DNA from: Porodaedalea pini
Taxonomy: Eukaryota; Basidiomycota; Agaricomycetes; Hymenochaetales; Hymenochaetaceae
Assembly: GCA_002794775.1 (NCBI GenBank)
Contig: NBAY01000092.1
Location: 1-64,000, forward strand
DNA length: 64,000 bases
Reading direction: 5' to 3'
The position numbers and the translations under genes were made by a program. Positions 17,879-63,683 of this stretch are shown piece after piece (within the stretch, counting starts at the first letter, position 1; every line of letters starts with the position of its first letter). The notes under the pieces were generated by a model, which saw nothing but the letters and a program-made list of their open reading frames with translations, had not been told where the DNA came from and made no database searches.

Positions 17879-19627
17879 TCACGAGAAGTTAAGGCTACGA
17901 AGTTTGGTCAGGACATTCTGCACGAATATCACACTTTCATCGCGTGCCTGGTATTCTGACTCTGTGACCTTCAGGACAGACTCGCTCAGAGTTGGCTTGG
18001 CTGGTTCCCCAAACATCAAGCAGGACACAACGACGTCTTTGAATTTCGTACCCATAATGACCGGGATCTCCCTCTCCGCCAGTTCGATCAAGTCCCACTG
18101 CACCAACCATCCTCTATTCCGGTACTCTGGCTGACCCATCTCTGTAAAAATCTTTTTATACTTCTCTATTGAGAAATCAAACCAAGAAAAATCAGCATCG
18201 TAACATTCCCTGTCGACCGACCAAGAAAACAGCGATCTCCAAAGTCCAACCTCGATGAGTACGACTCCAAGGCTGTAGATGTCATCGCGCATCTCATATC
18301 GAACGTGCTCCGCGGATGTGGTGTGTACAGGGTGTGTGTAGACCGTTCTCATGTGCGCCGAAAATTTGAAGGGATTAATGACAGTGTCGGCGTCATCGGA
18401 ACGCGCGCGATCGAAGTTGGCAAGATAAGGAGAGCCGAGCTTGTTTGGGAACAAGTCGTCGTCTTTAGCTCTGAGCGGTTCGAAGACAAGTATGGAATCT
18501 GGTCGTATGTCTTTGTGCACAACCTTTAGGGAATGGACGATAAGAACGGAAGTCGCGAGCTGGATAGAAAACTGGAGACGTGCATCCAGTGAATGGCGAG
18601 GCGCACCATCAAGGAGGAGCATGCGCAAGGTGCGCGGACGACGCGATCCCGGTGGTGGTCTGAAAACCAGATCGTGCTCTGTGCTTAAGAATTTGGACGA
18701 CGTCTCTGCCCACCCGCAGCAGGGCAGGATCCCAACACTAGCGGAAGACGCGATAGTCGCTGTCCCTGAACGTTCTTCAGCGAAGAGCCTGGCAATTTGA
18801 TCCGTCTCGTTGACCGCCTGATCGCCTTTCTCCTCTGCATAAAGGTAGTTCACGTCGCGCCTATCAATAATGCATCCCATATACCGGCCCTCCTCTATCA
18901 TGAAGAAGCCGGTTGGATGAGTGAAGTCGAGATCTTTGTATGAACTGATCTCTGAAGCTTCGATACGCTGTACGGGTAAGTTGCGGTCCGTACGCTCTTT
19001 GGCCCGAGCAATGAACAGGACATCATCAGCAATGTCCTTAATGAGGTTCGGGTCCATGTGCAAATACGGGTCCCTGACATATCTCAGCTCCTGGGAAGAC
19101 AGAAGAATGTCCCGCAAATTTCCAGTCCATCTCTCGAGCGTCTCCATAGCATCGTTGATTTGGCGACAGCCCATCGCAAGATATGCAATCTCTGTGGTTA
19201 GTTTTCCGATTGCAGAGCGGTTGAAACGCGTCAGAGTAACGCCATTTTTGCTTCGCATAAGTTTCTCTGCAATTGCGGCGGCAAGACGAGCCATGAACAG
19301 CCTCCCACTCGTTGCTGTATCAATTCGCAACCGCACCGTCCAATTCTCCACAACACACGCCATCGTCAACATAGCATCGGATGCGTGGAACAAAGCTTCT
19401 TCAAGCAGCTGTTGCCGCTGAGATTCTGTGGTTGCTGGACCAGCTTGAGCTTTGACATCGATAAAACCGACGTAATAGGCAAGCTTTCGTGTCCCGAAGA
19501 CAGCTTGATTGACCGCCAATGTGTGATTGGCCTGCAGGTTACGGTACTCCTGAACTGTTTTGCAAGTTTTGACGATGCCCTCGACGATCGCAGGAAAACC
19601 CAAGACTAGAGACACGAAGTCCGTCAT
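17879..19627 (-). CDS. HeLo/SesA-like helical domain fused to a pseudokinase (cluster 1)
   Basis: This intronless gene encodes 582 residues, with the ATG at 19627; a longer frame upstream opens with TTG. The N-terminus, MTDFVSLVLGFPAIVEG, is a hydrophobic or amphipathic segment. A helical region to about residue 200 has the layout of HeLo/SesA-type domains. The C-terminal half is kinase-like. The catalytic-loop equivalent is VVHKDIRPDSILV (Asp at ~373), with Ser where Asn is expected. The DFG site reads NFD, so the metal-binding Asp is not in place, and I see no glycine-rich loop. MRDDIYSLGVVLIEVGLW matches the kinase F-helix region. It is therefore a pseudokinase by motif. It lies downstream of the RPGW kinase in the same direction. 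Fungal HeLo-domain proteins act in programmed cell death, but a role here is inferred. A paralogue is at 48163-50001. Confidence 0.75.
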   Translation of the reverse strand: MTDFVSLVLGFPAIVEGIVKTCKTVQEYRNLQANHTLAVNQAVFGTRKLAYYVGFIDVKAQAGPATTESQRQQLLEEALFHASDAMLTMACVVENWTVRLRIDTATSGRLFMARLAAAIAEKLMRSKNGVTLTRFNRSAIGKLTTEIAYLAMGCRQINDAMETLERWTGNLRDILLSSQELRYVRDPYLHMDPNLIKDIADDVLFIARAKERTDRNLPVQRIEASEISSYKDLDFTHPTGFFMIEEGRYMGCIIDRRDVNYLYAEEKGDQAVNETDQIARLFAEERSGTATIASSASVGILPCCGWAETSSKFLSTEHDLVFRPPPGSRRPRTLRMLLLDGAPRHSLDARLQFSIQLATSVLIVHSLKVVHKDIRPDSILVFEPLRAKDDDLFPNKLGSPYLANFDRARSDDADTVINPFKFSAHMRTVYTHPVHTTSAEHVRYEMRDDIYSLGVVLIEVGLWRSLFSWSVDRECYDADFSWFDFSIEKYKKIFTEMGQPEYRNRGWLVQWDLIELAEREIPVIMGTKFKDVVVSCLMFGEPAKPTLSESVLKVTESEYQARDESVIFVQNVLTKLRSLNFS

Positions 19628-20039
19628 GTTGAAGTATGCCAACTGGCCTTTTGTCGGCGAAAAAGATTCTTCAGGCTATAAAGACAGATCGGATGAACTT
19701 GAAGTTTTGTCGATCAAGCTTGGAGCCGAACTAGCAATTGCCATTCTGGCGAATATTAATAGGCTCAAAGATCGTCAGATTCCACTCTATCTAATAAGTC
19801 TTCCAGAATTCTTTTGTTTACTGTAAATTCTTACGCCCTGTTTGATACATATTATACCAGAATTAAAGAAAACAGTTTAATTATGCAGGCAGAGCACGAG
19901 CGGATTGAAATGCTAGGTTCCATAGTTTCCGAATATTGCACACAAATAAGAATACGAATAGTAAATGCATGAGAGAGGACAGACAAATCTAGCTAGTCCA
20001 ACGAGATGACCCTGATCAGAGAGTCAGGCATAGAATTAG

Positions 20040-21355
20040 TCAAGGGTTCAAAATATGGGCACCAGACGCACCGAGTAAAGATTTTAAGATGTGAAAACAT
20101 TCCCGACGAACTGACCCAACATCCTGAACGAAGGATGCCAGCTTTCCTTTCCCAATGTCTCGGAGCCGCCACCTTTGCGCATATCCCGGAACACCAGAAA
20201 CTAGTCCATTAAACTGTGCTAACGCATCACTGATGGAAGGACGCTCCGTTGCTTCACGCTGCGTCATACTTTCAACGAGAGGAGTTAAGAACTTTGTATT
20301 CGTAAACTTCTGTCTGATAAATCAGCGGCAGGCCAACAAATAGAGAATAGTTCGTACCTCTGTAAAGTTTCGCTTGAAGACATTTCCGAGTATGAAAATA
20401 TCAACTGCAAACGGATCGTACATGTCGAAACCCGAGAGTTCAGGGACTTCTTGGTCTAGACCATCGCCCCCCCTTACCAACCGCGATTCTCCTTCCTTAA
20501 ATTGACTCGACAACCCGAAGTCCGTGAAGTAATATCTAACCGAATGAGCATCTCTTCGACGAATGGGATAGGCCGGCATGCCAGTCGCATCGAGATTCCA
20601 GACACTTGCATGGAAACCTTTGGGGAACATTCCCGCTGCGTCGAACATAATATTGCTATCTGAGCAATCTCTTCAAGGCTTGAAACGTCAGTTTAATATC
20701 AAGGCCACGGTAGATTGTAGTCTCTCACCTGTGCGCAACACCCAACCTATGCATAAATGCCAATCCCTGTCCGTGGTTCCTTATAGTGATGTTTGTGGAC
20801 AGATAGTCAAAAGACAAACCTCCAAAGCTTGTTTCATGAAGTCTAGTACTTCCTCAACGCTGAAAAAAGGGGGGTCGTTGAAAGGTCGAAGAAGTGGCAT
20901 AACGAGAAATTCGAGAGACGGCAGTGATTCGTCCCTAATGATCTGCAGGACAGGGATGCAATGGTTCGTCGGGTCTTCTACCTGAGCCCCAGATGAAAGA
21001 AAAGAGGCGATATTCGTCTCTGTTGAGTTCCGTTTGACAGCTTTGATGACGACTTGCGTCCCATCGGACAAGCGCTTGGCATCGATGAGCATGGGCAACT
21101 GTTCTTGAGCTTAGCAATTGTGACTTATCGGGTTATGCAGAGACGCACGGGGTTGTACAGCGAGTCTTCGCAGAGTAGGACCTTCTTGTCGGTATTCAAC
21201 CAAGAAGGAATCCACTCAGGTCGAAAACGTGGGCGTAGGAGATATCCGTGACGCTCGAGCATCTTCTGCCGATCTCTCCATACCATCTCACCGGGCGTAA
21301 GGTCGAACTTGATTTTGACATTTTCTTTCCGCCATGCAGGACTTTCATCAGACAT
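20040..21355 (-). CDS. Divergent protein kinase, 'RPGW' type (cluster 1)
   Basis: This kinase-like protein has its ATG at 21355. The N-terminal block LLRPRFRPEWIPSW is shared with the paralogues at 45.8 and 62.3 kb. The order is then VVIK (Lys of the VAIK motif, without a recognisable glycine-rich loop), an LVMPLLRPF hinge segment, GVAHR|DCSDSNIMF (catalytic loop, with an intron exactly between Arg and Asp), YYFTDFGLSSQF (DFG), QEVPELS in place of APE, and DPFAVDIFILGNVF (F-helix). Catalytic Lys, Asp, Asn and DFG are all present, so activity is plausible. The stop is read at 20040; if a last intron is used, as in the paralogues, the end would be near 19993. It is head-to-head with a TKL kinase, 155 bp away. 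Substrates are unknown. Confidence 0.8.
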
Positions 21356-21509
21356 CGAGTAAAGAGTAGGATGCAGAAAATTTGATGGGGATAGATGCAG
21401 AACAAGACGCAGGGCCAACATGAGATGTACAAGTTGATGGGATTTTGTTACCTAATGCAGTTTTATTGTTTCCAAGATTTGCAATATTTTCGTTGTTCTC
21501 TTTAGCACG
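21356..21509. promoter_or_regulatory. Shared divergent promoter, cluster 1
   Basis: Only 154 bp separate the start codons of the RPGW kinase (-) and the TKL1 kinase (+). The same head-to-head pair occurs in clusters 2 and 3, so a bidirectional promoter is likely. I saw no conserved motif by eye. Confidence 0.5.
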
Positions 21510-24955: not shown

Positions 24956-26316
24956 TCATTCTAATAGACGCTCGATGGCTAGAAGGTGTTTAATGAGTTG
25001 ACTCGCGCCATGCCTCTTCACAGGATCCGCAAACCAGCAGACAAGCATCACATTCCAGCAGTTATCATCAACGAGGCAATTCTCGGGCTTCGGAGGATGT
25101 TTTCGCTCTAACAACTCCTTTTCGATGGCATACCCATCCCATGGGTTAGCGCTACGGAGCACCTTTCAGACATAGGCTAAGCTCGATCACCGTCTCAAAA
25201 CTTGCAAACAATTACCTCAAGAAATGTACAACTGAAGGACCAGATGTCCCCCGCAGTGGTAGGATGCGTGTAATCGATCATTGGCTTTTTCGTCCAGCTT
25301 GATACCTTAACATATTCCGGCGGGGTCCACGAGAAAGTGACGGGCGCTGACGTTCCGCCAGTAACCTGGATATCAGTCTCCACCTCCGCCAGTTTTGTAG
25401 AGCCAAAATCTGCAATACGAGCATTGTATCGCGTACCGTCAAGTATCTCTATGACAATGTTGCTCTATAAAATGGGGAAATCGTAAATAAGACGTTCTGT
25501 ATGAAGGGAGGAGGGCTTACGGCCTTTATATCACGATGAATGGCGGGAGGGTTAAACGAATGCACTGTAGGTACATTAATGTGGCTGAAAGACGAAGCAG
25601 GACATGCTACGGCGTACTGTGCTTCAATCCGGATGCGACATCCCGCATCTGCCGTATTGAGTGAAACTTTAAGGCATATATTTCGGATCGATATCGCAGA
25701 CACCTACTAGCTTAACCTTCCCTTTCAGACTGATCTTGTACTGAGATACAAACATACGCAGATTTCTCCCTTCATAATAAGGCATAATCAAGGCAGGAAA
25801 AGCTTCCATTTGTAAGGGACGGACAAATCCCAGGAGAGGAGCGATGTTCGGATGGTCTCCGAGAGCCCTCCAAATTCGGCATTCACGCTTAAAGTACTGG
25901 GATCGAAGAGGATTAGTGAGAAAGTCCAAGTTTATAATTGTGTACTTAACAGCTTACTTCGATGAGAAGTCTGAGTCGTTTTTTCGGATCGCTCGATTGT
26001 GCAGAATAGTCCGTGTTGACGATCTTGATAGCCACGTACCACTAGCATTTACAGCATAAGACTGGAAGTGCTCAAAAGAGACCCTGCGAAGGACCACCTA
26101 CCGTGACATTTCCTTCAGCAGTGTGCGTTCCCTTGAGAATTCCGGTTCGTCTTCCGCCTTTAATCGCACGAAGTCGAACGATACTCCTTTCGCTGAACTC
26201 CGGAACTCGCCACTCATTTAGTACTGCTCCAGACTATCATTATCTCTCAGTTATGCGCGTCTAAGGCTTGAGCACTCACATTGAGGAATATAAGTTCTAA
26301 TGTTGACCCTGTCCAT
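24956..26316 (-). CDS. TKL2-type protein kinase (cluster 1)
   Basis: This is a short TKL kinase gene in several exons. Exon 1 starts at the ATG at 26316 (MDRVNIRTYIPQ) and joins in phase to LLNEWRVPEFSERSIVRL. Kinase motifs in order are TGILKGTHTAEGNV (loop region), VAIKIVNTD (Lys), YFKRECRIWRALGDHPNIAPLLGF, PAIHRDIKA|SNIVI (HRD), ARIADFGSTKL (DFG), FSWTPPEYV (APE-type PPE) and AGDIWSFSCTFLE. The product ends after LLAIERLLE with its stop at 24956. The catalytic residues are complete. Paralogues lie at 50.1 and 57.2 kb. It converges on the TKL1 gene. Substrates are unknown. Confidence 0.8.
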
Positions 26317-28774: not shown

Positions 28775-29740
28775 ATGCTAGACTCCCTTCTCCAGCTTCT
28801 TGAGGCAGCTGCTACTCGCTCAAGAGAACCCTTGTCAATTAAGGTGAGTTTTCCAGAGGACCTACTCTATCCGAGTTTGGTAACAAGAGCGTGAGCTTTA
28901 TAGGCCGAGCGAGGTGAGCTTGATGAGCGGACTGATGCCCAAATCGTCGAACTGCGCCGGACTGCACCAAAGCTTATGACGATCCTTGACTGGCCTGATA
29001 GTCTACAACTACCATTCCGAATGCTTGCTCCGAACATCATCTGCAAATCAGGATACGATGTTTGTGCATGGGAAGCACAGACGATGGAATTGGTCCGCAG
29101 TCAAACGACTATCCTGGTTCCCCGAGTGTTGCAATTCTTCTCTGTTGAAGATGATTATGATCTCATCATGGAATTCATCAGAGGGTATCTCCTTAGAGAC
29201 TGCTGGTCGGACCTTACCCTCTGACGGAAACTCATAATTGCTTGGGGACTCCGCGGTTACATTCGAACTCCTCAGATTGATGCCCAGGTTCCCGGCCCGT
29301 ACACAGAGGATCTAACCAAGCCCATACGGTGCTCCGGACCTTTGCTAGGTGAATACGACGCTGGTCCGTTCGCGTCCGTGGTAGAATTAGCCGCGTGGTA
29401 CAGTCTCGCACACCAGCACGCCATGCATCTGAATCTGCACCATCGACAGGCCCTTCCTTTCGACGACTTTGAGTCCCTCGTTCTCACTCGTGAAGATCTG
29501 GCAACGCGGAATCTTATAGCGGGAAGTTATGAGTCATCGACTGGGGCGCCTCGGGTGTCTATCCACGGTGGTTCGAGATGTGTGCGATGCTCACTTGTAG
29601 CCCGCCGCTGTCTTGGAAGTGGGCGAGCCGATTTGCTGCTGGATGGTATAGATCGCAGGAGATTGTTTTCTCTGTGGTGTATAACTCTCTTTCGGTGTTG
29701 GGCGGCACCGCCTTTCCCCAGACTAATACTTCAGTATAGG
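28775..29740 (+). pseudogene. APH-family phosphotransferase-like gene, copy 1, frameshifted
   Basis: The fold family is aminoglycoside phosphotransferase/choline kinase-like. The first exon (MLDSLLQLLEAAATRS, from 28775) splices to a long exon with WPDSLQLPFRML, FSVEDDYDLIMEFI, LRGYIRTPQIDAQVPGPY and GPFASVVELAAWYS. Three defects are seen against copy 2 (31.1-32.2 kb). A TGA at 29222-29224 is shared by both copies. The catalytic-loop HGDL is changed to REDL. A deletion of about 10 bp near 29515-29525 throws the DWG (metal-binding) segment out of frame. The gene is dead. Confidence 0.8.
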
Positions 29741-29949
29741 AGCTTGATCCAAAGGACAAAGGATGAGGGTAAGGGTTACATAAGCCCGAGGTGCTATAAG
29801 AAAAAGATGCCCTTTCCTGTGCACTTTGTTTGGTAACGAGATGAGTTCGAATTCGCTGACTACTATCATTACACGTTGCGCTGAAATAATCCTTGTCATT
29901 TCAGATCTCTCATCCAACCGATGCTGCTCCTTGTCATCTTTCTTCAATG

Positions 29950-30660: not shown

Positions 30661-30954
30661 TTTAGCGGGGACCCTATGGCTGTTGATCACACCCCACCCG
30701 TCATAAATTCTCATAATAACCCTCACCTCTGGTCCTTCAACAACGAAGCCTTGGGGATTTCCTCTGCCTTGTTGTCGCTGTCCTTCAGAAGTCTAATGTC
30801 TAGACTGGATGAATTAATTATAGTGTTTTTGTCTGATCACCCACTCATATTTCAGATATCATCTCTTCAATCGCTGCATTTTATGATCGGGCTTTCCCAC
30901 TCAGTTTAAGTAGAATTGCCTAATAAAGATACATTAATCTACAAACTAGTATTT
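30661..30954. other. Spacer
   Basis: A 128-codon frame passes through here (30523-30909), but its right half resembles no family. Nothing else was seen. Confidence 0.35.
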
Positions 30955-31099: not shown

Positions 31100-32189
31100 C
31101 CTCACTCTCAGACCTGTGGTCTTCTGAGTCCTACGACTCCCTTTTTAAGCTCCTCAAGTCAGCTGTTACTCGCTCGAGAGAACCCGTGTCAACCAAGGTA
31201 AGTTTTCCAGAGGACCTGCTTTATTCAAGTTTGATATCAAGAACGCGATTTTTTATACTAAATTAAAGGTCAAACGCGAACTGGCTGAACTTGACGAGCT
31301 ATCTAATGCTCAAATCGTCGAACTGCGCCGGACTGCGCCAAAGCTAATGACAATCCTTGACTGGCCTGACAGCCTACAACCTCCATTCCGGATGCTTACT
31401 CCGAACATCATCTGCAAATCAGGATACGATGTTTGTGCATGGGAAGCGCAGACGATGGAATTGGTCCGCAGTCAAACGAACATCCCGGTTCCCCGAGTGT
31501 TGCAATTCTTCTCTGTTGAAGATGATTATGACCTCATCATGGAATTCATCAGAGGGCGTCTCCTCAGAGACTGCTGGTCGGACCTTATCCTCTGACGGAA
31601 ACTCATAATTGCTTGGGGACTCCGCGGTTACATTCGAACTCCTCAGATTGATGCCCAGGTTCCCGGCCCGTACACAGAGGATCTAACCAAGCCCATACGG
31701 TGCTCCGGACCTTTGCTAGGTGAATATGACGCTGGTCCCTTCGCTTCTATGGCAGAATTGGCCGCGTGGTACAATCTCGCGCACCAGCACGCCATACATC
31801 TGAATCCACACCATCGGCCCGCTCTTCCCTTCGACGACTCTGAGCCCCTCGTGCTCACTCATGGAGATCTGACGATGCGGAATCTTATACTGGGTGATGA
31901 CGGGAAGTTATGGGTCATCGACTGGGGCGCCTCAGGTGTCTATCCACGGTGGTTCGAGGTGTGTGCGATGCTTACTTATAGCCCGCCGCTGTCTTGGAAG
32001 TGGGCGAGCAGATTTGCTGCCGGATGGTACAGATCGCAAGAGGTTTTCTTCTCTGTGGTGTATAACTCTCTTTCAGTGTTGGGTGGTCTCACCTTGCCCC
32101 AGACTGATCCTTCAGTCTGGGAGCTTGACCCTAAGGACTGGAAGGTTTTTAGTTTCACTCCGGCAGAGAACACTCTTGCAGATACTTGA
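31100..32189 (+). CDS. APH-family phosphotransferase-like gene, copy 2, with in-frame TGA
   Basis: This is the less damaged copy. A first exon near 31115-31196 (SLFKLLKSAVTRSREP) splices to a long exon from about 31270. Motifs are FSVEDDYDLIMEFIRGRLL, LRGYIRTPQIDAQVPG, LTHGDLTMRNLIL (catalytic loop with Asp and Asn) and LWVIDWGASGVYPRW (DxG-type metal site). The product ends in ENTLADT with the TGA at 32187-32189. The reading is open except for a TGA at 31593-31595, between SDLIL and RKLIIAW, where relatives appear to have a Trp or Arg codon. No splice pair removes it. It is therefore either a pseudogene with one lesion or a readthrough case. No clear ATG for exon 1 was found. The substrate of fungal APH-like proteins is generally unknown. 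Confidence 0.65.
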
Positions 32190-42521: not shown

Positions 42522-45500
42522 TCAAAAGTCCGAATGATAGAGGAGATTACCAAGCTTAGATAAAACCCAACTTGAAGTCGCCCTTTGGTTCCTCTCATAT
42601 TTCCAGCACTCCTCCACGATCGGCCAGAACTTGTCATTCACGTCAGCTCTCTTCGCGGGTAGACCTCCAGCTAACTTAATATCCCTAACTGTGTTGAGAT
42701 GGTACAAAGCGTAAGGCTTTTTTCCAAACATGACCTGGAAATGTCATTAAAATCATAAATGTGTGGAACCTGAACGAATCGCACCTCAAGGATCACACAA
42801 CCAAACGCATACATATCACCCTCTTTGCTCACTCGTACGACAATACTTTCATGAGCGAAAAGTAGCTCAGGAGCTAACCAGTTATCGCAAGTCCTCTGCT
42901 CTGCGGATTGCTGGTACAGCCGTTCCTTCACTTCTATGGTGATATCAGAGATCCCAAAGTCACAAAGTACCGCACGAGTCTCTCCAGATTCGAGCCTTTG
43001 AACCAGAATGTTCGCCTGCAGAGTTATAAAGGTAAAACAGATGACGGAGTGGGAAAGCAGAAGGTGATTGAACTGACAGCGCGAAGGTCGCCGTGAGCAA
43101 CATCCTCGGAATGGACTAGATTGTTTCTTGAATATACAAAGTGGGTACGGAATTGCGACACTCACGATGTTGTATGCCAGATGCCACATCATGAAGCTTT
43201 ACAAAGGCGAAAGAAGGAAGTCAGCTCTTCACTCTGGTAGTGTCTACCGGATAACTCACGAAACTCAGCTTCTTCTTTTCAGACGAGGATGGGTGTTCCT
43301 TCAGAAAGCGTTCTAGGTTTTTATCGAGACAAGCTGGAGTAACAAGCGAAGGAAAAGTATCCTGAGGGAGTATACAGTATCCAAGAAGAGGTAGAACATT
43401 GTCATGCTTCAGATTGACCCAGATAGAGGATTCTCGTTTTACGAGCTGTGATTAATCAGAGAGTCGAGTTACGAAGAATTATGGATACGACTCACGTTTC
43501 CTATAGCTGAAGTTTTCTTCTTATAACTCTTCACGGCATACTGGATGAAACGATCTCAGTGTATAGAACCAGATAAAATTGGACAAAGTTAGTACGTACG
43601 AGCTCGGAACCATCTTTCGAATTACGAGCAGAGACGACAGAGAACGCTCCTGACCCAAGTATTTTCAATGGCTTAGGCTGGACATCTATCTTCTTCAGCC
43701 CGGACTGCTTCAGTCCTAAATTACAACTTGTGTTATCTTCTTGCGACGTGACCAACGTTTTGGATATACCTTCGAAATCGAACTCAAAATCTGCCTCGTC
43801 ACAGTTCGTTGCAATGATCTCAGCAGCCTTCGTAGATTCCATTTTTTGGATGTCGCTACAGGCATAATCAAGATCGGACTCGCATTCTAGTAGCCTTGAG
43901 TCCAGAACTAAGGCCCTCGCTTTCGCCGAAAAGTCTTTTGGATCAATATCAAACAGCTGCGATACCGCAGGCTTCGGTACGTCTTACAACCATCATTATA
44001 ACGCGCTCGTTATAGAGAAATGAAGACTGACTCACAGCTGGACTGTGCCTTGTCCTCCTTTGCGGCGATCAAGTAAGGATCAGCCAAGAGCACACCACCG
44101 AAGGCCTGTGCAAAGCATCGCTGTCTTAGTACCTTGGTTGTAAGAGAAATGAATTGTGTGAGTCACCGAAACTAGGCGTTGGATATCCTCCATCAAATTC
44201 TCTAGTTCCACCAAAGCGGTCGATAGGATGTCGGAAGCGAGGTTTTGTATGGTTGCGCTATCGTTGTATACACCCTTCGCCTTTTCTGTCGTTTTCCATA
44301 GTGAGAAAACAATACTTAACGCAAAAGTTAGTTTGCATCAAAAGTATGACAATCAGTAACGACGCACGGAACGGTGAGACCGAAAAGCATTGAAATACCG
44401 TAATCCTGATCAGGATGCTTTGCGTGGAGACGAACAAGTTCGACGGCAACTATTCTGGCCTTGTCAGCAATATTTGAAAGGCGGCCAACGGAAGGAAATC
44501 GTTCTAAGTACTAGAATGTTCCCTGTCACCCATAGTTTGTTTATTGAAACTAGTTGAACACGCACCTCAGAGGTAAGGTCATCAAACACGTATACGACGC
44601 ACTTACATAGCGTTTTTAGGTCTGCCCAGGCATCGGCACCTGAAGATATTATTTACAAGTAAGAAAGTAGAATATATCGAAAATTGATATCGATCGCGCA
44701 CCATGGCATTTTGATGGACGCTTCTCCATCCACCAGGTCTGGAACTGTGCCTCTGAGTATTCCAAGCTAGTTACCCACGTCATCCTCGAGTTTGCAGTTG
44801 CAAGTACTAGAGACAGAGATGTACACATTAGACACGTCTTTGTACAAGGAGAGCTCTGCTTACGGTTAAATTCTACGCTCCATGGCTCGGAAGAGGTTGA
44901 AGCAATCCCGGAAGAGCGTAAGAAAGGCTCTTCTGTCCGAAAGGCGTAATTACTGACATCAATGTATTTCTCTCTTTTAGCGGTAGACCTCTGAACTTCA
45001 GCGTTAGAACACCGTCGAGACACAAAGATTGGACAAACCTCTATGTCAAGCTTGACAAGAAATATATTTTCTAGCGCTATCCTTCTTGTTTTTATAGCAG
45101 ACAGGATTGGCGGAAGAGGTACTTTTCGAGCTATTCGAATGAAGAAGTTTTTGCTGTTCGTGGGGGCGGTCAAGAGATCATACGTTTCCCTTGCACTAGA
45201 GATACGTTCATCAACAACACGCAAGAGTTCGAATATAGATACGCACTCCTGGATTGCTTCTTTTACGCTTTGAGTCTGCCTATCACTATTATCCTCCGCT
45301 TCCATGTATTTTCCCATCCTACTCTCTACCTCGGCTTCAAGGCTGCCCATCTCCTTCGCAAGCAATTTATTCTGTAAGCTCAATAATGTCATTTCTGAAT
45401 CAACTTCAATCTTAACCATGACTCGCCATTGTGCGAACGGATAGAAAGAAAATTCGCCCTCTCTCTTCAAGTGACATTTCGTTTCCTTTGTGCATTTAGC

Positions 45501-45571
45501 GGTGAAACCAGTTCGAGGAGCTTTGAGGGATGCCAGTTGATCGAGACTTGCGAATGAGGTCGAGCTGCCAT
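42522..45571 (-). CDS. TKL1-type protein kinase with helical N-terminal region (cluster 2)
   Basis: This is the paralogue of the genes at 21.5-24.5 and 59.1-62.0 kb. The N-terminal exons (~44650-45440) encode a helical, charged region with coiled-coil-like stretches (LLSLQNKLLAKEMGSLEAEVESR). Downstream are the shared blocks FQTWWMEKRPS and ADAWADLKTLCKCVVYVFDDL. The kinase domain has ILGSGAFSVVSAR (glycine-rich loop), YAVKSYKKK (VAIK Lys), HNVLPLLGYCILP preceded by KRESSIWVNLKHD, HGDLRA|ANILV (HRD as HGD), VLCDFGISD (DFG), NWLAPELL (APE) and GDMYAFGCVILE. It ends after LLYHSDF at 42522. The start is uncertain; an ATG at 45571 is the nearest candidate, 194 bp from the divergent RPGW kinase. 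Catalytic residues are intact. Confidence 0.75.
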
Positions 45572-45764
45572 TTGATCTATATGAGTACAACGGATTGTCC
45601 TTGACGACAGGAAAGCAAGTAGTGTGTGAGGGCTGTTCAATTGTAAACAATTGTTTTTGGCTCGCCTTGTTTGAGTTTCTTCGACGTTGTCGTCATGATG
45701 AATCCGACTTATGTAATCGATCAACGTGAATGTCCGCACGACACTTCTCCGAGTCATACTGATA
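45572..45764. promoter_or_regulatory. Shared divergent promoter, cluster 2
   Basis: About 190 bp separate the candidate start of TKL1 (-) from the ATG of the RPGW kinase (+). The arrangement is the same as at 21356-21509 and 62018-62274. Confidence 0.45.
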
Positions 45765-47146
45765 ATGGCGGCCACAACATCAAGTACGAGCAAGACCGAC
45801 AAACCATTAAAGCGCGATCCTTATTCGCTTAGAGAAGATGAGCGATGGTGGCGCGATCAATATGAGCTGCTATTAAAACACGGGTACAAACTTCGTCCAC
45901 GATTCCGACCAGGATGGACACCTTCATGGACTATAAGAAAGAAAGCCCCAGAGCTCTGCGAGGACGGGCATGCAAATCGCGTATGTGATGCATTTATTCT
46001 GTTAAAATAGGTCATTTTCTCACTGGCAACGTCGTGCAGCATCCGAAAACCATTGATGCGAGACGCGTTTCCGACGGCAAACGCGTGAAGATCAAGAAAC
46101 TTGTCAAGGGCAGCAAAGAAGTGGAGCTCGCACTATTTCTTTCAAGTGAATCGCTTCTGAAAGATCCTCGAAATCACTGTGTTCCTGTCCTCGATGTGTT
46201 CAGCGAGGAGAACGATCGCTTGGAATTTGTGGTTATGCCTCTGTTGATAACGTATAAGAGGCCACCGTTCTCCTCCGTCGACGAAGTTATGGATTTTATG
46301 AAACAAACACTTGAAGTTTGTCTCATATTTTCTTGTCAACGAGCCCTGAAATTAACGTCGTTGTCCAGGGCTTGTCATTTATACATGATCAAGGAGTAGC
46401 GCACAGGTAGACCCTCGCCCTTCTGTCTATCACTTTATTTGTTAATGATCGTGTACCTAGGGATTGCTCTGTTCTCAATATCATGATGGATGGAGAACCT
46501 TTATACCCTAAAGGGTTCCATCCTAGTATGCCGCTGCTTGATGCATCTGGAAAAACTGCTAGCCCACGTCGACGTCGCGATGTTTCCGGTGTGACTTATT
46601 ACTTCACGGACTTCGGAATTTCTACTCGCTTTGACGGCACTGAGCAGACTCGACTGGTGACCGGTGAGGACGGACAGGACCAGGAAGTTCCCGAACTTCA
46701 TCGACCTGAGCCATACGACCCCTTTCCCGTCGATGTTTTCATTCTTGGGAATCTTTTCCGAAAGGAGTTTATGAAAGTATGGATCATCATTCTTTTCCCT
46801 GACAGTATGATTGATACATTTTACGTAGGTGTATGAAAACTTCAGCTTTCTCGAGCCGCTCATTGAAAGAATGACGCAACAAGACCCGAAGGATCGCCCG
46901 ACTATCCAGGAAGCGCTGCAACTGTTCAATGACATCGTTGGGAAACAGCCCCCTCGGTCATTACGGTGGGCTCTTGTTTACTATGACGGCAGCAGGTTCG
47001 AAAGATTTATTTGGAATGCCGACTCCGTGAGGCGTGAAGCTATGCTCTTGGCAAGGACCTTTCTACGTGAGTGAAATTGACACAGTCCAGATATAGCGAT
47101 AAATCATATTTTTCCAATAGCCTTGACATCGAAAAGGGGCCGATAG
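45765..47146 (+). CDS. Divergent protein kinase, 'RPGW' type (cluster 2)
   Basis: The start is the ATG at 45765. The N-terminal block KLRPRFRPGWTPSW is followed by VKIKKL (Lys), HCVPVLDVF, VVMPLLITYKRPPFSSVDEVMDFMKQTLE, GVAHR|DCSVLNIMMD (catalytic loop split by an intron between Arg and Asp), YYFTDFGISTRF, QEVPELH and DPFPVDVFILGNLF. A final intron after TFL leads to PLTSKRGR and a TAG at 47144-47146; the C-terminal PL...R ending matches the cluster 3 paralogue. No glycine-rich loop is visible. Catalytic residues are otherwise complete. The HeLo-like pseudokinase gene follows 1 kb downstream on the same strand. Partners and substrates are unknown. Confidence 0.82.
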
Positions 47147-48162
47147 AGAGCGTGTGCTAGGCTCTACTGGGCTCAGTGGGACTCTTTCCTCTTCAGCTCA
47201 TTCTTCGTGCTAAGTCAAAGTTATTAGGCATACTATTTTGTTATTTTCTACATACTCGGAAAACGGAATGTTTTGGTGCGCGGGATACGGATTAATGGTG
47301 CCGGCCTCACTGCAATTATACAGAATACTTTTGAGCTAGAGTCTGCTCATACTCAGAGCTTGCCGAAGAGACGAATGCCATACTTGAGTGAAACAACCCT
47401 CAGAACTTGGCACATGACACGATACCGAATAAGAGACACAGTATACGAAACGGGAAGTGTCAGGCATGTACCAATATGTCTACCGCACTGGCTACAGAAA
47501 GCAAATTGACTATTCTGCAATTGTGTGGGCAGTCTTGTTATGCAGCAAGCGGACGTGCCAGTCCCAATAGTGTGGCACGATGTTTGAAAATATTAATGAA
47601 CGGCCTTAGGAAACCTGATAAGGTTCTCGAGGGCCAATACGCATGCAACTTGCGAACCAATGGTTAATAACACCGACGATTTCAACAACACTTTTCGATC
47701 TTTGTTGGAAACGAGGCGACCTTGTTGAGCATTAAAAATAGAACATTGTGATACCCCTAGCTCCGTAGCAATCCCCGAAGACAAGCTGTCAAAAGAACAA
47801 AAGCTCTGCGGCTATCCGGGCTGATCGGCGATCGAATAAAGTTCAAAGCTTAGTACGTAAGATCCTCTGTGGGATGTTATGTTCGTTTATGAGTCCACCC
47901 GCCTGCTTTGCGGTCTCGTCTATCGATCCAGCCAACTCATCGCAATTCTGCAGAGAATCAGGTTAGTTAACGCACTTATGTTCTACCTACTTCTCACTCA
48001 TAGTCTATGCATAGTTATCATTTTGATCCACCCCCCCTTCAAGATTTGTTTTGTCGAACTTCTATCTGTAAAGTTTTCTGAATCATAGTGAGCTCGCTAC
48101 TGTCGCTACTAGATTCGCTGCTGACCATGTGCTTTTTCAAAGCTACCTCAAACAGTCTCGCC
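47147..48162. other. Spacer between RPGW kinase and HeLo-like pseudokinase, cluster 2
   Basis: In cluster 1 the equivalent spacer is about 400 bp, and here it is about 1 kb. Small frames at 47273-47667 have no recognised family. No repeat was recognised that would explain the extra length. Confidence 0.4.
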
Positions 48163-50001
48163 ATGTCTGACCTTGTGGCTCTGGTCGTCGGAATACCAGG
48201 CATTGTTGAAGGTTTCGTGAAGACATGCCGGACCATCGAAAGTTACAAAGGCGTGGAGCAGAAGCATCGAGAGACCATCGCCGACGCGGTCCATTACTCT
48301 AAAAAGCTCGAGTACTATGCTCACTTTGTCGATCAATCTCCCTTAAAGGAAAACGGAATGCAGGCCGGGTCGGAAGGTACGAAAGAAACCACGTCCGACG
48401 TATCACAGGCAGCGGATACTGCGAGTATGGAAGTTGGAGACCGTATGGCGATTCTGCGAGACTCTCATCAGCTTTTAACCGACCTCTTCGAAAAGTCTCT
48501 CATGTCTCTCAGTACTGCTAGGAAGGTTGTCGATGAATGGACCCTGCGCCTTGGATTGGACGTAGATGATCAGAGTCACAGCCGCCTTTACATCGCAAAG
48601 CTTGCGCTGGCGATTTGTGATCGCTTGACTGGGAAAGATCGTTCCACAGGTCATAGAAAAGAAAATGGGCCGCTCTCTAATTTCCGCAGCAAGACGGCGC
48701 TCCTGGTTATCGGGTGTCAACAGATCGAGGACGCGATGGGTAGACTGAAACACTGGCTGCGCGAATTACATGACATACTCATGGCTTCACCAGCACTGCG
48801 CCATCATCTTCCAAAGCTGGAAGCTGTCGTCTTGGAGCACGGAAAAGGAACTAATGATGATGTTCTATTTGTCGCAGTGGCCAGAGAGAGGGAGGGTGGT
48901 ACGCAGACGATGGAGACTGTTAAGCCTGATTTGATATCATCACTTCGTCCGCTGGATGACCGGAAAGCACATAACTTTATGCTCGTCGACTCGCAGGATA
49001 GTCCATACCATGGCTGTCTTGTGGACCGCAGAAACGTTCTTCGTCTTTTGCAAGAGGGAAAGGAGAGTCAGGCTGTTAAGGATACCGAGCTCATCGCTCG
49101 CCTTTTTGCTGAGGAACGTGACGAACTCGGACATGACATTTCGGCAAGTGTAGGCGTCCTCCCGTGCTGCGGCTTCGCGAGACCTATTCGCGAGCACCAC
49201 GATCTCGTCTTCCGCCTTCCTGAGAATACTCGACGGCCACGCACCCTCCGCAGTCTTCTTTTGCAAGGAAATCCCCGACATTCCCTAAACGATCGCCTCG
49301 ACTTTTCTATCAAGCTTGCGACCACCGTCCTAATTGTACATTCACTAAAGCTTGTCCACAAGGATATCCGCCCGGATTCTATCATTGTTCTTGAGCGGTT
49401 TAGTACGCTCTCTGAGGCATTTGATAGCCCTCGAACCCTTGGTGAACCCTACCTCGTCGCTTTCAACGAGTCACGATCGCTGGACTCAGCTACAGTTCCT
49501 ATAACAGAGGCTCAAGACGATGAGGTCCGCTGGGCGTCTTTATATCGCCACCCGCGACATCTTGCAAGCCATCTTCATCGCCCTTTTGAGATGCGCGACG
49601 ACATTTACAGCCTAGGCATTTGCCTGCTTGAGGTTGCAATATGGAACTCGCTCTTTTCCTGGGACGAGACGCGGAAGATTTACGTCAATAACACTTCCGT
49701 ATGTGACCTTTCCGAAGAAAGGTATGACAGGATGCTTGAAGAAATGGGCGAGGATGTGAATCGTAGCCAGGCGTGGTTCAGACAACTGGATCTGGAGAAA
49801 CTCGCCGAGGAAAAGGTCGCTGTGACTATGGGAAATGCTTTCAAAGACGTTGTCGTCGAATGCCTCACTTTTGGAACGGGAAAGAAGTCGCTGAAAGAGG
49901 TACTTGAAGGGAAAGACCTGGGTCGGACTCATCTCCAAAATCAGAGTGTCGCATTCATAAATAACATTCTGTCTAAACTTCGTAGTCTAAAACTGTCTTA
50001 G
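48163..50001 (+). CDS. HeLo/SesA-like helical domain fused to a pseudokinase (cluster 2)
   Basis: This intronless gene encodes 612 residues, starting at the ATG of MSDLVALVVG (48163). An upstream extension of 25 codons opens with a non-ATG codon. The N-terminal segment LVALVVGIPGIVEGFVKTCR and the helices to about residue 220 match the cluster 1 paralogue. The kinase-like half has LVHKDIRPDSIIV (His 399, Asp 401; Ser in place of Asn), LVAFNESRSLD at the DFG position (Asp lost), and MRDDIYSLGICLLEVAIW. No glycine-rich loop or VAIK Lys is visible. It is a pseudokinase by motif. The layout of a helical bundle followed by a pseudokinase is like animal MLKL, and HeLo-type domains are known membrane-active death effectors in fungi. 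Function here is inferred only. Confidence 0.78.
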   Translation: MSDLVALVVGIPGIVEGFVKTCRTIESYKGVEQKHRETIADAVHYSKKLEYYAHFVDQSPLKENGMQAGSEGTKETTSDVSQAADTASMEVGDRMAILRDSHQLLTDLFEKSLMSLSTARKVVDEWTLRLGLDVDDQSHSRLYIAKLALAICDRLTGKDRSTGHRKENGPLSNFRSKTALLVIGCQQIEDAMGRLKHWLRELHDILMASPALRHHLPKLEAVVLEHGKGTNDDVLFVAVAREREGGTQTMETVKPDLISSLRPLDDRKAHNFMLVDSQDSPYHGCLVDRRNVLRLLQEGKESQAVKDTELIARLFAEERDELGHDISASVGVLPCCGFARPIREHHDLVFRLPENTRRPRTLRSLLLQGNPRHSLNDRLDFSIKLATTVLIVHSLKLVHKDIRPDSIIVLERFSTLSEAFDSPRTLGEPYLVAFNESRSLDSATVPITEAQDDEVRWASLYRHPRHLASHLHRPFEMRDDIYSLGICLLEVAIWNSLFSWDETRKIYVNNTSVCDLSEERYDRMLEEMGEDVNRSQAWFRQLDLEKLAEEKVAVTMGNAFKDVVVECLTFGTGKKSLKEVLEGKDLGRTHLQNQSVAFINNILSKLRSLKLS

Positions 50002-50080: not shown

Positions 50081-51438
50081 TTAATCTAAAAGCATATTCA
50101 TATAAAGTGCAATGCCAGACGCATCAATACGTGCTTCAGGTTCGTCATTCCAGCAGTGTTCCATAATAGACCAAACGGCATCATCAATGACTAACTCTGA
50201 CGGTCTTGGCGGATGTCTCCGTGCCTTGAGTCGAGATAGAGTTCTGTCATCCTGTCCCCAAGGGTCGCTTCCTTTCAGCGTCTGCAAGTAAGATTGCCGA
50301 TCTGTGAGTACAAATATACGAAGCTAAGAAAGAGACATACAATTCACCTCAAGCAGAGTACAACCGAACGACCATATATCACCGTAGGGAGTTGGGTTGG
50401 TATAGCTGGGCTGCCCATTTATGATAAACTCTGGCGGGGTCCATTGTATTGAGGTCATCATTGTTGTGTATGCCATGTCTATTCCAGTTTGGTCTAGGAA
50501 CTTTGCGGAGCCAAAATCCGAGATGCAGGCGATGAATGTCTTGCCACTCTCTTTCACAAGTATATTAGACTGAAGAAGCCAAAACTGTCAGATGCTATGA
50601 AAAAGCAGATCAGTTGATCCACGTACGCCTTTGATGTCTCTATGAACCACTTGCGGAGTAAGCGAATGCACTAAATGATGGAAAGTCAAGTCATGTTACA
50701 AAATCAACTTTGAGCGCGTACGGTACTCTAGTCCACGTGCGACATCTCGTGTCTGAACATAGGAGCAATCAGCTTAGAAAAGCATTACTGCACGAGACGA
50801 AATATCATCGTACTAGGCTCAGGCGAATCGCAACGGTTATACTCCTATCATTCTCAACAAATCGACGCAGATCCCTTCGTGGATAATAGGGCGAAACTGT
50901 AGCTGGCAGAATACTTCCATTGAAGCTCTCCATGAATGCAGAAATTCCCGCAATGTTCGGGTGGCTGCCGATCTTGCGCCAAATGCCAGCCTCGCGCTTA
51001 AAATACTGAATAACACTTTTTATATCAGAATACCGTGTGTCATAGAAGATAAAGGTTTTACCAGAAGCAACTTTTTCTTCCTCTCTTCATCATTGAGAGC
51101 TTGCTTGGCAGTATCCGAGTTGAAGGTCTTTACTACAACGGTCCTCTTAAAGAAAGAAGTTAGTAAGAGCTATTGCTACGAGTTAAAGAGCACCTACCGG
51201 ACTGTGGTCAAGCTCGGATTGGGATGCCATCGATGCTAGGATGATGTGTGAACGCCATCCATGTGTAAGAGTATCGATATGCGTAAGCTGAGACTCTTTA
51301 AATTCGGGAACGGCCCACTCCTCGCGGATACCTGAAGAAGAAAAGACCTGAGTAGGGTCAAAACACTGCACCTTTTCACGCACCTGAAAGGATTTTTTGT
51401 TTCACTTCTTCTACGGATGCCGAAGTATCTGATGACAT
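50081..51438 (-). CDS. TKL2-type protein kinase (cluster 2)
   Basis: The start is the ATG at 51438 (MSSDTSASVEEVKQKIL), joined by an intron to GIREEWAVPEFKESQLTHID. The kinase motifs are VVVKTFNSD (Lys), YFKREAGIWRKIGSHPNIAGISAF, PYYPRRDLRRF (hinge), QVVHRDIKG|SNILV (HRD), ACISDFGSAKF (DFG), IQWTPPEFI (PPE) and YGDIWSFGCTLLE. The product ends after YMNMLLD, with TAA at 50081-50083. The catalytic residues are complete. The gene is convergent with the HeLo-like pseudokinase, whose stop is only 80 bp away. It is closest in pattern to the TKL2 genes at 25.0 and 57.2 kb. Confidence 0.82.
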
Positions 51439-57228: not shown

Positions 57229-58573
57229 TCATTTCTCCTCCGTAATGAATCGATCCAGGCATGCCACGACTTTCTCTGTAGGATACCGTGACGTTGGGCG
57301 TAGCTTCCAACATCCTTGAAGGAACTTCCAGTGCTCATCCTTGAGCTCTACGTCGCGAGGTCGTGGGGGGTGGTGCCCTTTCTCAAGTTCGCGAAACACA
57401 TCAAGATTCGTGGGCCATGGATCACTTCCAGTCAGGACCTATTAAATCGAGCTCAGTAATGAGTCAAATCCAAATACAGTAGGAATGCTTACTTCTAGAA
57501 AAACGCAGCCGAATGACCATATATCGCCGGACGGCTTCGGGTTCGTATAGCTTTCCAGAAATGTCTTCGATTTCACATACTCTGGGGGCTCCCAGGCAAA
57601 GCTGCACGATTTTGAAGAGCTGTACACAACATTCACAGCCGGGTCCATCAACTTGGCAGAGCCAAAATCGTTTATGCAAGCGATAATCCTCGTTGGGATA
57701 ACTTTCAGAAGAACATTTGACTGGAGACCCTTAATAAGAAAAGCGTCGTTTTCTCCATTTTAACACAAAATACGAACCGCGGTCAAGTCTCTATGCACGA
57801 TAGGGGGCTGAAGGCTGTGTACTTGGATGGACATTAGTGATGTTGCTACTTCAGAAGAGGGACACTCTTACAATGCTCCAAACCGCATGCGATGTCTCGA
57901 AGCTACGAAAATCTTAGAACTGTTTCCAAAACAGACACTGTTCTCTCAGGTACTCACAAACTGTAGCTTTGTCTTGTCGTTTGCATCGGCACCCTCGTTT
58001 GTAATGTAGTATCTCAGGTCACCCATCGGAAAGAAGTGGAATACGAGTACCGGAAAGGTATCGTCTCCAAAGGAAGGCATGAAGCCCATAATCCCCGCTA
58101 TGTTTGGATGGCTGCTGGCACGCATCCAAATATCAGCCTCTCTTGTGAAGTACTTTCCGGAGAAATGGTTCGTCAGACATGGGTCGTCTAAATTCGATGG
58201 TATCCACATACCGCGAGTAATTTATCTTTGTACTTTTGCGTCTTCATTTCCTCCAGTCTTCCAACTGCGAAAGCTTTGTTGAGAGATTTGACGACAACGC
58301 TCTTAGAAAAGTAAGGCGCGTAAGCTCTCGTGGAAGCTGAAGCGTCTAACATGGTACACTCACGACTTTTCCAGCCTCTCGCGTTGCAAGTATACCCTCG
58401 GTTAGAGTTGATCGACCGGAATTATGAAAAACACGTTTTGAAGCTGTAAACTGAACGTCTCTGTATTCCGGAACCTTTGCGACGCGGAACTCTTTCGAAT
58501 TCAAGTGGATCAGTTGTCGCGATCATGATCAATTAAGAGAGTGCCACTGACTTTCAATAATTGATGTATTCAT
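57229..58573 (-). CDS. TKL2-type protein kinase (cluster 3)
   Basis: The start is the ATG at 58573 (MNTSIIE), joined in phase to KFRVAKVPEYRDVQF. The motifs are TEGILATREAGKV (loop region), VVVKSLNKA (Lys), YFTREADIWMRASSHPNIAGIMGF, HFFPMGDLRYYI (hinge), PIVHRDLTA (HRD) and then SNVLLKVIP after an intron, ACINDFGSAKL (DFG), FAWEPPEYV (PPE) and SGDIWSFGCVFLE. The C-terminal lobe runs from VLTGSDPWP to a TGA at 57229-57231. Catalytic residues are complete. Its sequence is nearest to the TKL2 genes of clusters 1 and 2. Here it lies downstream of TKL1 in the same direction. Confidence 0.8.
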
Positions 58574-59111
58574 AGCCACGGACATCGTTAGAAATGTTGT
58601 ACCTCGAAAACCTTCAAGAATTGTCAACGATAGCAGTCGATGAGGTGGGTTAAATGGGCTGTTGTAGATGAATGAAGCAGTGCTTAAAAGGCTTCACGGA
58701 CGATGGTTCGTGTCATGCTAGGACCCCAAGTCCTTGCCGATAGCAACAGACTGCAAAAGTATAGCCTCTCTGTTTATTGAGCACAAGGCAGAGATAAGTC
58801 ATCTTGTCGCGAGAACCAAGCCGGATGCGGTGAATACAAAGGGACAGGTCGCTGCTAAGCGCTAAGGCCTCTTGAGTTACGTACACCTGGTGCCAGCCAG
58901 CTCATCATAAGCTAAGTCAGACCGAACGCGCGTACCAACAAGCTCAACAATTTTTTTTTCCAGCATCTCGGTTCTCTATAGGATGGGACGTTGCATTTTT
59001 GTGCATTCAGAGACATTCCAGAGATTAAAATTGTCGGGGACACTACGTGCATTGCCATAGAGTGTAAAGACAAATGGTACAGACAAAACGGATAAACAAA
59101 GATAATCGGGA
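58574..59111. other. Spacer between TKL2 and TKL1 of cluster 3
   Basis: This holds the TKL2 promoter region and the 3' flank of TKL1. No gene is supported. Confidence 0.45.
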
Positions 59112-62017: not shown

Positions 62018-62274
62018 TGTCCTTGGGACACTATGCTAGGGCGGAGGTGGAGAGGGACGCACTTTCTGCAGGTATAGGGAACAAAGGGAAGGCATTGAGT
62101 TTTATACAAACGCTGTATCAGATAGCAGAAGAAGCTAACGCCGACAGAACAAGGAGGTGCTTATTGTCCTTTGGACAGCGTGAGAGTGTGTACATCACGT
62201 GGAGAAAGTGATATTTGCTTGAAGTTTGGCGACGCGCACCGACTTCACTTTAGTCTTTACCGCCTTGCCTCTCC
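62018..62274. promoter_or_regulatory. Shared divergent promoter, cluster 3
   Basis: 257 bp separate the ATGs of TKL1 (-) and the RPGW kinase (+), the third example of the same divergent pair. Confidence 0.5.
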
Positions 62275-63683
62275 ATGACTGACGACCTGGTCCCCAAAGA
62301 AAATTCCATGCAAGCCACATATGGAGATCAAGATGATCTCATCGAGTCTGAAAAGTGGTGGAGAGATCATTACAACCTGCTGGAATCACACGGCTATCGT
62401 CTACGCCCTCGGTATCGTCCAGGCTGGACACCGCCATGGAAAGTCACGGGGAAAAGCCGAATGCTCTACGAGGACCGCATCTATAGCAAAGTATGGTGGC
62501 TTCTTCCTTTTGTGTATATTCGCTGTACATAACATCTTAGGTGGATTATGTTATGGACGCGACTCGGATTTCAGATGATACAGTCGTCTCCATCAAGCGC
62601 ATCAGCATGAGATCTCAAGAACTGTCCATTGCGCTATTCCTTTCCAACAACGAAGACTCGGATGAAGCCATGAATCACTGCGTCCCAGTTCTAGACCATT
62701 TCAGCGATGCAATTCTACCCCAGTTTTCGTTCCTCGTTATGCCTCTATTGCGTTGGTTTGATGACCCACCGTTTTTTTCTGTTGATGAGGTTCTTGAGTT
62801 TTTTCAACAGACGTTAGAGGTTAGAATTTCGTCTTTCACTGGCAATCTTTATACTCACATGCTCTAAAAGGGTCTCTCGTACATGCATAGTCGAGGCGTG
62901 GCTCATAGGCGAGTCTATGATCACTTTTTATTTACTCCACCTTTACATCTAACAAATCTACAGGGACTGCGCTGCGCTCAATATCATGCTAGATGCCTCC
63001 TCACTATATCCACAAGGCTTTCACCCCGTTGCTAAGACGCTGGACCCATCGGGAACAAAGAGCGCGCCCGTTCGGCGACGTCGCGATGTGAAGGGTGTCA
63101 AATACTACTTCATTGACTTCGGCATTTCTTCTCGCTTTGAGAAGGACGTGAAGGCAGAGGATAGATTGGTGACTGGAATCGATGGCCAAGATCGTGATGT
63201 CCCAGAACTCTCTGCTCACCTCTCATATGATCCATTTGCAGTCGACGTTTTCATACTTGGAAACGTGTATCGAAAAGTATTTCTCGATGTTCGTGAGCCC
63301 ATATATCCACCACCTGTCTCCAATGGCTGACCTTCCCATTATCACTAACAGGTCTACACCAACCTCGCATTTCTTTCAAGCCTTGTAGAGTCCATGACAG
63401 CCCCTATACCTGAGGATCGGCCATCTGCTGATAAAGCGCTTGCTCAATTTCGCGACCTTATTGCTGACCAACATGGTGTTCGACTTCGGTGGAGACTGAA
63501 GAAAAAAGACTCAGGAATAGTGTTGCGTGTTCTGCAGGATATCGGATCTATTGCGCGAGAGGGAGCTTACGTGTCGACGAAGATTATTAGTAAGATACTT
63601 TGTCGTCAATCGAGTATTCACACCTGACTCATTTTGTACTACTTTGTCTTCCAGAGCTCCCTTTAGGATTGCTGCGGAAGTAA
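62275..63683 (+). CDS. Divergent protein kinase, 'RPGW' type (cluster 3)
   Basis: The start is the ATG at 62275 (MTDDLVPKEN), and the product is roughly 390 residues in six exons. The N-terminal block RLRPRYRPGWTPPW is followed by VVSIKRIS (Lys), HCVPVLDHF, LVMPLLRWFDDPPFFSVDEV, GVAHR|DCAALNIML (intron between Arg and Asp), YYFIDFGISSRF, RDVPELS and DPFAVDVFILGNVY. A last intron after KII leads to KLPLGLLRK and TAA at 63681-63683. Like its paralogues it has no obvious glycine-rich loop, but the other catalytic residues are present. By analogy with the other clusters, a HeLo-like pseudokinase gene should follow beyond the window. Confidence 0.82.

Follow-up and report, generated by a model that had tools for sequence, protein, structure and literature searches.

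Why should a fungus keep four kinase-type genes together in clusters that recur along one contig, and what could such a set do? The question is raised by the first 64,000 bases (positions 1-64,000, hereafter the window) of contig C92 of Porodaedalea pini (NBAY01000092.1; 141,350 bp), which belongs to an assembly of 53.3 Mb in 201 contigs (GCA_002794775.1); C19, C21, C25, C29, C65, C170 and similar names denote other contigs of the same assembly. The original prediction, made from the letters of the window, described three clusters built from the same four gene types: A, a helical bundle joined to a pseudokinase; B, a kinase with an RPGW motif; C, the kinase TKL1; and D, the kinase TKL2. It also proposed that the products work together, with recognition or immunity as a possible role. 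This interpretation is supported by our work, as far as sequence can speak: we give an even chance to the reading that the set is a four-gene module for non-self recognition or regulated cell death in Hymenochaetaceae-type fungi, in which C and B would form a balanced-polymorphic recognition pair and A an MLKL-like executor. Among the matches listed in the openly licensed literature, no title or start of an abstract described the four-gene set as a unit, which is weak evidence of absence.

A tblastn search of the window with all its stop-to-stop open reading frames (ORFs) of at least 30 amino acids (aa) recovered the three clusters where they had been predicted, with the same gene types in each. 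The two A genes match each other with 41% identity over 624 columns (A1, 17,903-19,663, minus strand; A2, 48,136-49,977, plus strand; E 9e-132). B matches lie at 20.07-21.3 (minus), 45.8-47.07 (plus) and 62.3-63.6 kb (plus), with 33-60% identity per exon, C matches at 23.6-24.3 (plus), 42.8-43.4 (minus) and 59.4-60.0 kb (minus), and D matches, all on the minus strand, at 24.98-25.9, 50.1-51.0 and 57.24-58.2 kb. For the intron-rich kinases B, C and D de novo gene finding was inadequate; their models were guided by paralogues, and the exon ends and N-termini are approximate. Module 1 (C92:17.9-26.3 kb), which is inverted relative to module 2 as had been proposed, consists of A1 (17879..19627, minus; a single exon of 582 aa), the multi-exon B1 (20060..21360, minus; ends approximate), C1 (22253..24536, plus; two predicted pieces, 5' end uncertain) and D1 (24956..26316, minus). 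Module 2 (C92:42.5-51.4 kb), with the order C- B+ A+ D-, contains C2 (42522..45419, minus), B2 (45765..47074, plus; 5' end approximate), A2 (48163..50001, plus; 612 aa, with an upstream in-frame ATG at 48,127) and D2 (50081..51438, minus). These two had been called complete and are so within the window; module 3 (C92:57.2-66.05 kb, order D- C- B+ A+), which had not, is complete as well: D3 (57229..58585, minus), C3 (59112..62011, minus) and B3 (62200..63683, plus; ends approximate) are followed by A3, the partner of B3, just outside the window at C92:64,326-66,053.

The number of three clusters stands for the window but not for the genome: C92 carries six copies of the module, a seventh complete one lies on C29, and partial ones are found on C21 and C25. 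Modules 4 (C92:68.1-76.6 kb), 5 (C92:102.2-111.4 kb) and 6 (C92:116.2-124.6 kb) and the C29 module (C29:458.2-466.4 kb) all have the order D+ C- B+ A+, and so has module 1 when it is read inverted. The head-to-head arrangement of C and B, predicted from all three clusters of the window, and the position of A behind B in the same direction, predicted from the two in which A lies inside the window, are present in all seven complete modules. D is the loose member of the set, since its position or strand differs in modules 2 and 3 and on C25. A same-strand B lies at most 2.5 kb upstream of 8/11 non-allelic A loci (including one fragment at C25:47.5 kb), and a head-to-head C accompanies eight of the 11 non-allelic B loci; neither count includes the relic of B at C92:125.5 kb or the generic kinase match on C4 (E 3e-4). 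With a D query, the D genes of the modules ranked first, and other kinases mixed in only afterwards. The predicted retention of the whole set thus holds in this genome. On C21, the partial module (C21:115.0-120.7 kb) has the order B+ A+ D-, and no C gene was found in the 3.9 kb preceding it; the contig also carries two lone B genes (C21:42.2-43.5 and C21:510.8-512.0 kb), for which no other module type was found within the fetched 9 and 8 kb. The C25 module (C25:70.7-77.0 kb, order D- C- B+) has apparently been dismantled by rearrangement. This D-C-B set, which lacks A, is flanked by two A pieces, almost identical and oppositely oriented, at C25:55.8 and 95.6 kb.

A surprise lies in the way in which the modules differ between the two haplotypes, all comparisons of which concern one heterozygous individual and, for the genes, predicted models. 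The second haplotype of C92:1-66,949 is represented, in collinear order, by C19:533,605-602,897; C65 corresponds to C92:67.1-77.1 and 109.3-112.4 kb and, much diverged, to 103.9-108.7 kb, and C170 to C92:114.6-124.5 and 129-133 kb, the latter stretch being matched equally by C93. Along C92:1-66,949, 130 of the 133 windows of 500 bp align with C19 over at least 60% of their length, with a median identity of 99.0%. Seven 500-bp windows fall below 85%: one lies at the edge of a repeat (31,001) and the other six are contiguous at 44,001-47,000, in module 2. At a resolution of 250 bp, identity there drops from 99-100% to 60-91% in an unstranded block at 43751..47250, which covers the N-terminal half of C2, the C/B intergenic region and B2, and the adjoining windows are again at 99%. 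The same picture is seen in module 6, with 55-77% at 118,001-122,250, between D6 (99-100%) and A6 (91-98%), and in module 5, with 55-79% at 104.0-108.75 kb and A5 on the right at 90-100%.

The gene products tell the same story. The alleles of B2, B5 and B6 are 88.2, 76.8 and 81.5% identical, with a synonymous divergence (dS) of 1.05, 1.47 and 0.86 and a ratio of non-synonymous to synonymous divergence (dN/dS) of 0.06-0.13. By way of scale, identity between B1 and its Fomitiporia relative is 73%, so that the B5 alleles of a single individual differ nearly as much. The neighbours of these genes are nearly invariant: the alleles of A2 are 99.3% identical (dS 0.009), those of D2 99.7% (dS 0.010) and those of D6 99.3% (dS 0.010), and A6 (94.8%, dS 0.15) rises more mildly than C and B. 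In C2, 215 of the 313 aligned N-terminal residues are identical, as compared to 327 of the 328 in the linker and kinase (predicted, trimmed proteins). The predicted exons of C and B are open on both haplotypes in modules 2 and 6 (the models of C6 are limited to the kinase part, and some B models are in two pieces), and B2, B5 and B6 retain their kinase motifs on the second haplotype. Per-gene haplotype values for C3 (71.7%), C4 (93.5%) and D5 (28.7%) were discarded as artefacts, due to the mapping of exons or to a stretch that was too short; the DNA windows give 91-99% for C3 and 99-100% for C4, and the per-gene values for C5 and C6 share the weakness of exon mapping. Taken together, three of the six modules on C92 (2, 5 and 6) have deeply diverged, intact-looking C-B alleles with a narrow footprint, their haplotypes being only about 55-82% identical across the pair, as expected for a fungal het locus. 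Within the set, polymorphism is concentrated in C-B, and A and D are more constant. Such divergence beside near-identical neighbours is the pattern expected of genes for self/non-self recognition and adds support to a recognition role.

Did the clusters multiply as blocks, a question which the original prediction proposed to test with trees? Trees were built by maximum likelihood from query-anchored alignments, alongside pairwise identities, for nine module loci. For B, C and D, modules 3, 5 and C25 form a clade supported at 100%, within which 3 and C25 make a pair at 97-98%. The A tree likewise unites A3, A5 and both A pieces of C25 (100%). Modules 2 and 4 come out together for A (100), B (100) and C (77), but not for D. 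Distances are correlated across the six pairs of gene types (Mantel p 0.0004-0.003). Rank correlations are weaker, at 0.21-0.61, since the remaining modules are for the most part roughly equidistant, and the signal rests mainly on the groups (3, 5, C25) and (2, 4). Block duplication fits the history of A, B and C, and in part that of D. For the B tree with relatives, 44 of the 120 listed proteins were chosen as Hymenochaetales, three Schizopora rows (P0065, P0089, P0138) and unnamed rows being excluded; the included P0052 (Somion) is presumably not a member of this order. In this tree B1, B2, B3/B5, B4, B6 and the C29 B each group with Sanghuangporus or Fomitiporia proteins at 92-100%. As six B lineages have relatives in other genera, the array must have diversified before those lineages split, and the set is old. 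The two haplotypic copies of each B gene are monophyletic (98-100%), and conversion from another known module as the source of the divergent alleles is rejected on this ground. Beyond the genome under study, the predicted neighbourhood could be followed only through gene numbers: in Sanghuangporus, A and several B types are numbered within a few dozen genes.

How would the products act? A is encoded by a single exon of about 560-610 aa, in which the helical bundle is joined to a TKL-fold pseudokinase without the DFG motif; A3, A5 and A6 have also lost the catalytic Asp. The kinase part of A aligns with MLKL. The best named relatives of A1 are FOMMEDRAFT_160243 of Fomitiporia mediterranea (72%) and Sanghuangporus proteins, and full-length relatives of the same build exist, several of them named as Ascomycota species (HHalign probability 100%). 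In the family consensus of the distant, partly ascomycete-named relatives (P0013-P0036) GFE replaces DFG. Human MLKL has the letters GFE likewise, possibly by convergence. In Foldseek, the A bundle gave nothing at E<=0.001, and the MLKL and NRC4 rows of a looser search were not outstanding. Among 24 more distant A relatives there was one weak match, below the cut-off, to PigL_N (E 0.15), which we count as a HeLo-type profile. A HeLo identity of the bundle is compatible with these results and not proven by them.

The other three products are kinases. B is small, and on C92 it has the Lys, HRD and DFG motifs, without the HRDxK lysine. The FunK1/Pkinase_fungal profile (PF17667) stayed below its cut-off of 24.1 bits with B6 (E 0.1, 11.8 bits); among relatives of B, P0040 reached E 0.065 (12.4 bits) and P0037 had no match. 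The family is widespread, with 200 proteins at E<=0.001, of which 120 were listed (P0037-P0156); the species-named ones among the matches listed we take to be Agaricomycetes. Among these matches, B relatives often carry adjacent gene numbers (Cerrena, Jaapia, Peniophora, Schizopora). Similar B arrays, perhaps without A, may thus exist in other Agaricomycetes. C joins a long helical N-terminal part to a TKL kinase. Pfam found no named domain in the helical part when C2 was searched, and the search for C relatives gave four remote kinases only. D is a short TKL kinase. DFG is present in 8/8 rows of C and in eight of nine of D (NFG on C25), the GD motif of C is readable and present in six of eight, and HRD of D in seven of nine, the gene model of D6 reading HRDIRASN; the VAIK-type Lys of C and D is readable in few rows only. 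Where they are readable, C and D thus carry predicted catalytic kinase motifs.

The build of A recalls known executors. MLKL, which executes necroptosis in animals, and the plant MLKLs also consist of an N-terminal helical bundle followed by a TKL-type pseudokinase without DFG; unlike in MLKL, the genomic partners of A are three kinases in a repeated cluster, and activation of A by a RIPK-like kinase would be an analogy only. In their accessible parts, PMC12881547 and PMC10197012 report fungal HeLo/HELL executors, some of them fused to kinase or pseudokinase domains, and therefore the executor type of A is not new by itself. In A, as in the proteins of PMC12881547, a kinase-type domain follows an executor-like bundle at the N-terminus; unlike them, it gave no Pfam HeLo-type match among the members of the A1 alignment, and no search aimed at NLR or amyloid partners was made. 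Balancing selection leaves narrow footprints at ascomycete het loci (PMC11138114, as far as its accessible text goes), and C and B resemble these in the short, sharply bounded and deep haplotype divergence, seen here within one individual.

Within the reading of the set as a non-self recognition module, one specific version appears possible to us without being probable: the C-B pairs would be multi-allelic somatic-incompatibility loci and form, together with A, a phosphorylation-based writer-reader system for necroptosis-like cell death, with the specificity residing in the head-to-head kinase pair and the execution in A as a conserved MLKL-like pseudokinase. In the main reading itself, C, with its variable helical N-terminus and its presumably active TKL kinase, and B would be co-inherited and expressed from one shared promoter region, around which linkage would hold matched alleles together. 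Specificity would be set by B together with the helical, variable half of C, so that products of the same haplotype match each other and their targets, and foreign cytoplasm with an unmatched C or B would alter the phosphorylation state of A. C or D would be the writer and A the reader, the constant kinase of C (as seen in module 2) and D acting on a constant effector. Finally, the N-terminal bundle of A would be released in an MLKL-like manner and permeabilise the membrane of the fusion cell. Since the sequenced individual is heterozygous, mismatch within one established mycelium must be tolerated. The accessible text of PMC8229728 (Auxier and colleagues) argues on theoretical grounds that non-self recognition in basidiomycetes could be a post-translational reader-writer system, with multi-allelic loci and with heterozygosity tolerated within the heterokaryon; a set of kinases and a pseudokinase in which one kinase pair is polymorphic agrees with this outline. 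According to the same text, current models of somatic incompatibility are founded on the genetics of ascomycetes, little is understood of it in basidiomycetes, and the limited genetic studies point to three to five loci, some perhaps highly polymorphic. It also covers het-V of Podospora, which resembles the module in that a modifying enzyme is linked to an MLKL-type executor and an allelic difference is tolerated in the heterokaryon; the differences are a methyltransferase and a Tudor-type reader instead of kinases and a pseudokinase, and presence/absence instead of diverged alleles.

Several observations weigh against the recognition module and its proposed mechanism. First, divergence is not general: over their whole length, modules 1 and 4 show 97-100% identity between the haplotypes (A1 and B1 each 99.7% at the aa level to their C19 copies), and module 3 shows 88-100%, with the lowest window at the 5' end of A3 and not at C-B. 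In module 5, the left boundary of the block is not established, since the second copy of D5, at C65:36.2-36.9 kb, is separated from C5 there by about 15 kb, and A5 is broken in both haplotypes despite the deeply diverged C5-B5 alleles (one stop and a frame break at C92:109,659-111,390, one stop at C65:61,278-62,996). Second, the A bundle does align with the executioner domain of MLKL, at a score within the noise of unrelated helical bundles, and none of the 16 members of the A1 alignment matched a HeLo-type Pfam profile at E<=10 (one row was cut at the locus end and two proteins were partial). Third, no trans-species alleles were seen in the B tree, where the alleles of this genome group together and not with other genera. 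The pairing of A with B may not be fixed either: the A1 orthologue of S. baumii (gene 3782) is numbered beside a B2-type gene (3783) and ten from the B1-type genes (3792, 3793), if the numbers follow position. Fourth, the coexistence of divergent alleles in one individual excludes simple allelic killing. Finally, this single heterozygous individual is the source of the evidence, the phase and allelism of the divergent blocks are given by the assembly alone, and the sole control, the haplotig pair C66/C111 chosen for equal kinase matches, was 99.8% identical over 6 kb.

The strongest competitor, unlikely in our view and still to be reckoned with, is xenorecognition: C and B would sense competitors, bacteria or mycoviruses, host-parasite selection would keep the polymorphism as in plant resistance genes, and A would kill. 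The alleles, the executor-like A and the repeated expansion fit this equally well, a healthy heterozygous mycelium poses no problem, and PMC10197012 notes in its accessible part that the same genes can be subject to both allo- and xenorecognition. The weak points of this rival are that the few proteins scanned contained no recognisable pathogen-binding domain, and that the divergence of module 2 peaks around the intergenic region of the gene pair, which is more typical of matched pairs. We consider it improbable that the set consists of ordinary tandem-duplicated TKL signalling genes with no recognition function, the blocks being due to introgression or to conversion by an unsampled paralogue. 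The wide distribution of the B family and the large number of TKL genes reported in the accessible text on Laccaria (PMC2838846) would suit this, but three separate blocks strike the same gene pair, near-identical DNA stands on both sides of blocks 2 and 6, the alleles group by module, and dN/dS between B alleles is low.

Still less credible is a sensor of mating or nuclear pairing, in which the head-to-head pairs must differ between nuclei and their heterozygosity signals a proper dikaryon. The geometry is that of homeodomain mating loci: as in HD1-HD2 pairs, C and B are divergent genes with the promoter-proximal parts most diverged between haplotypes (seen in module 2), and there are several subloci. 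Unlike HD1-HD2, C and B encode kinases: no homeodomain was found in C2 and B6, which were scanned as examples and gave kinase matches instead, nor in six neighbouring ORFs of the window, linkage to a mating locus not having been tested. Moreover, two of the six modules are practically homozygous and one is mildly diverged, which indicates that heterozygosity is not required per module. In Trichaptum, whose order is also that of the relatives found, mating alleles are long-lived (PMC8970355, accessible part), which would favour such a sensor. That C and B are the poison-antidote or drive pair of a selfish killer on one haplotype is very hard to believe: the linked genes are indeed divergent and haplotype-specific, but intact-looking homologous genes stand on both haplotypes, and B lineages of many modules are present in other genera.

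The remainder of the locus contains features outside the set. An element of about 2.5 kb is present in two direct copies, about 76% identical (9,413-11,848 and 14,345-16,813); C19 has about 4 kb extra beside it, and the haplotypes thus differ by a large indel there. Duplicated gene fragments lie at 28,781-29,758 and 31,135-32,139, the second with an APH/choline-kinase-like domain, and C92 at about 29.8-31.1 kb has no counterpart on C19. The minus strand carries a large GC-rich gene at 32,265-37,385 (predicted 1,587 aa; three ORFs without a Pfam match at E<=0.01) and an intron-rich gene at 4,049-5,879, perhaps for an FAD-dependent monooxygenase (weak FAD_binding_3 match, E 0.006, in one ORF). 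Rfam gave no match in the window. Outside it, C92:80.9-96.9 kb between modules 4 and 5 is probably filled by multi-copy retroelements, their type being judged by eye; a 2.6-kb piece had at least 43 genome matches listed, itself included.

Recognition genes are poorly known in mushrooms, and the locus provides concrete candidate genes with the expected signature for somatic incompatibility in basidiomycetes. It also offers a concrete way in which one mycelium could hold two alleles. If the reading as a recognition and cell-death module is true, mushrooms would possess a RIPK-MLKL-like pathway of kinases and a pseudokinase executor, and its specificity region would be the N-terminal half of C together with B.

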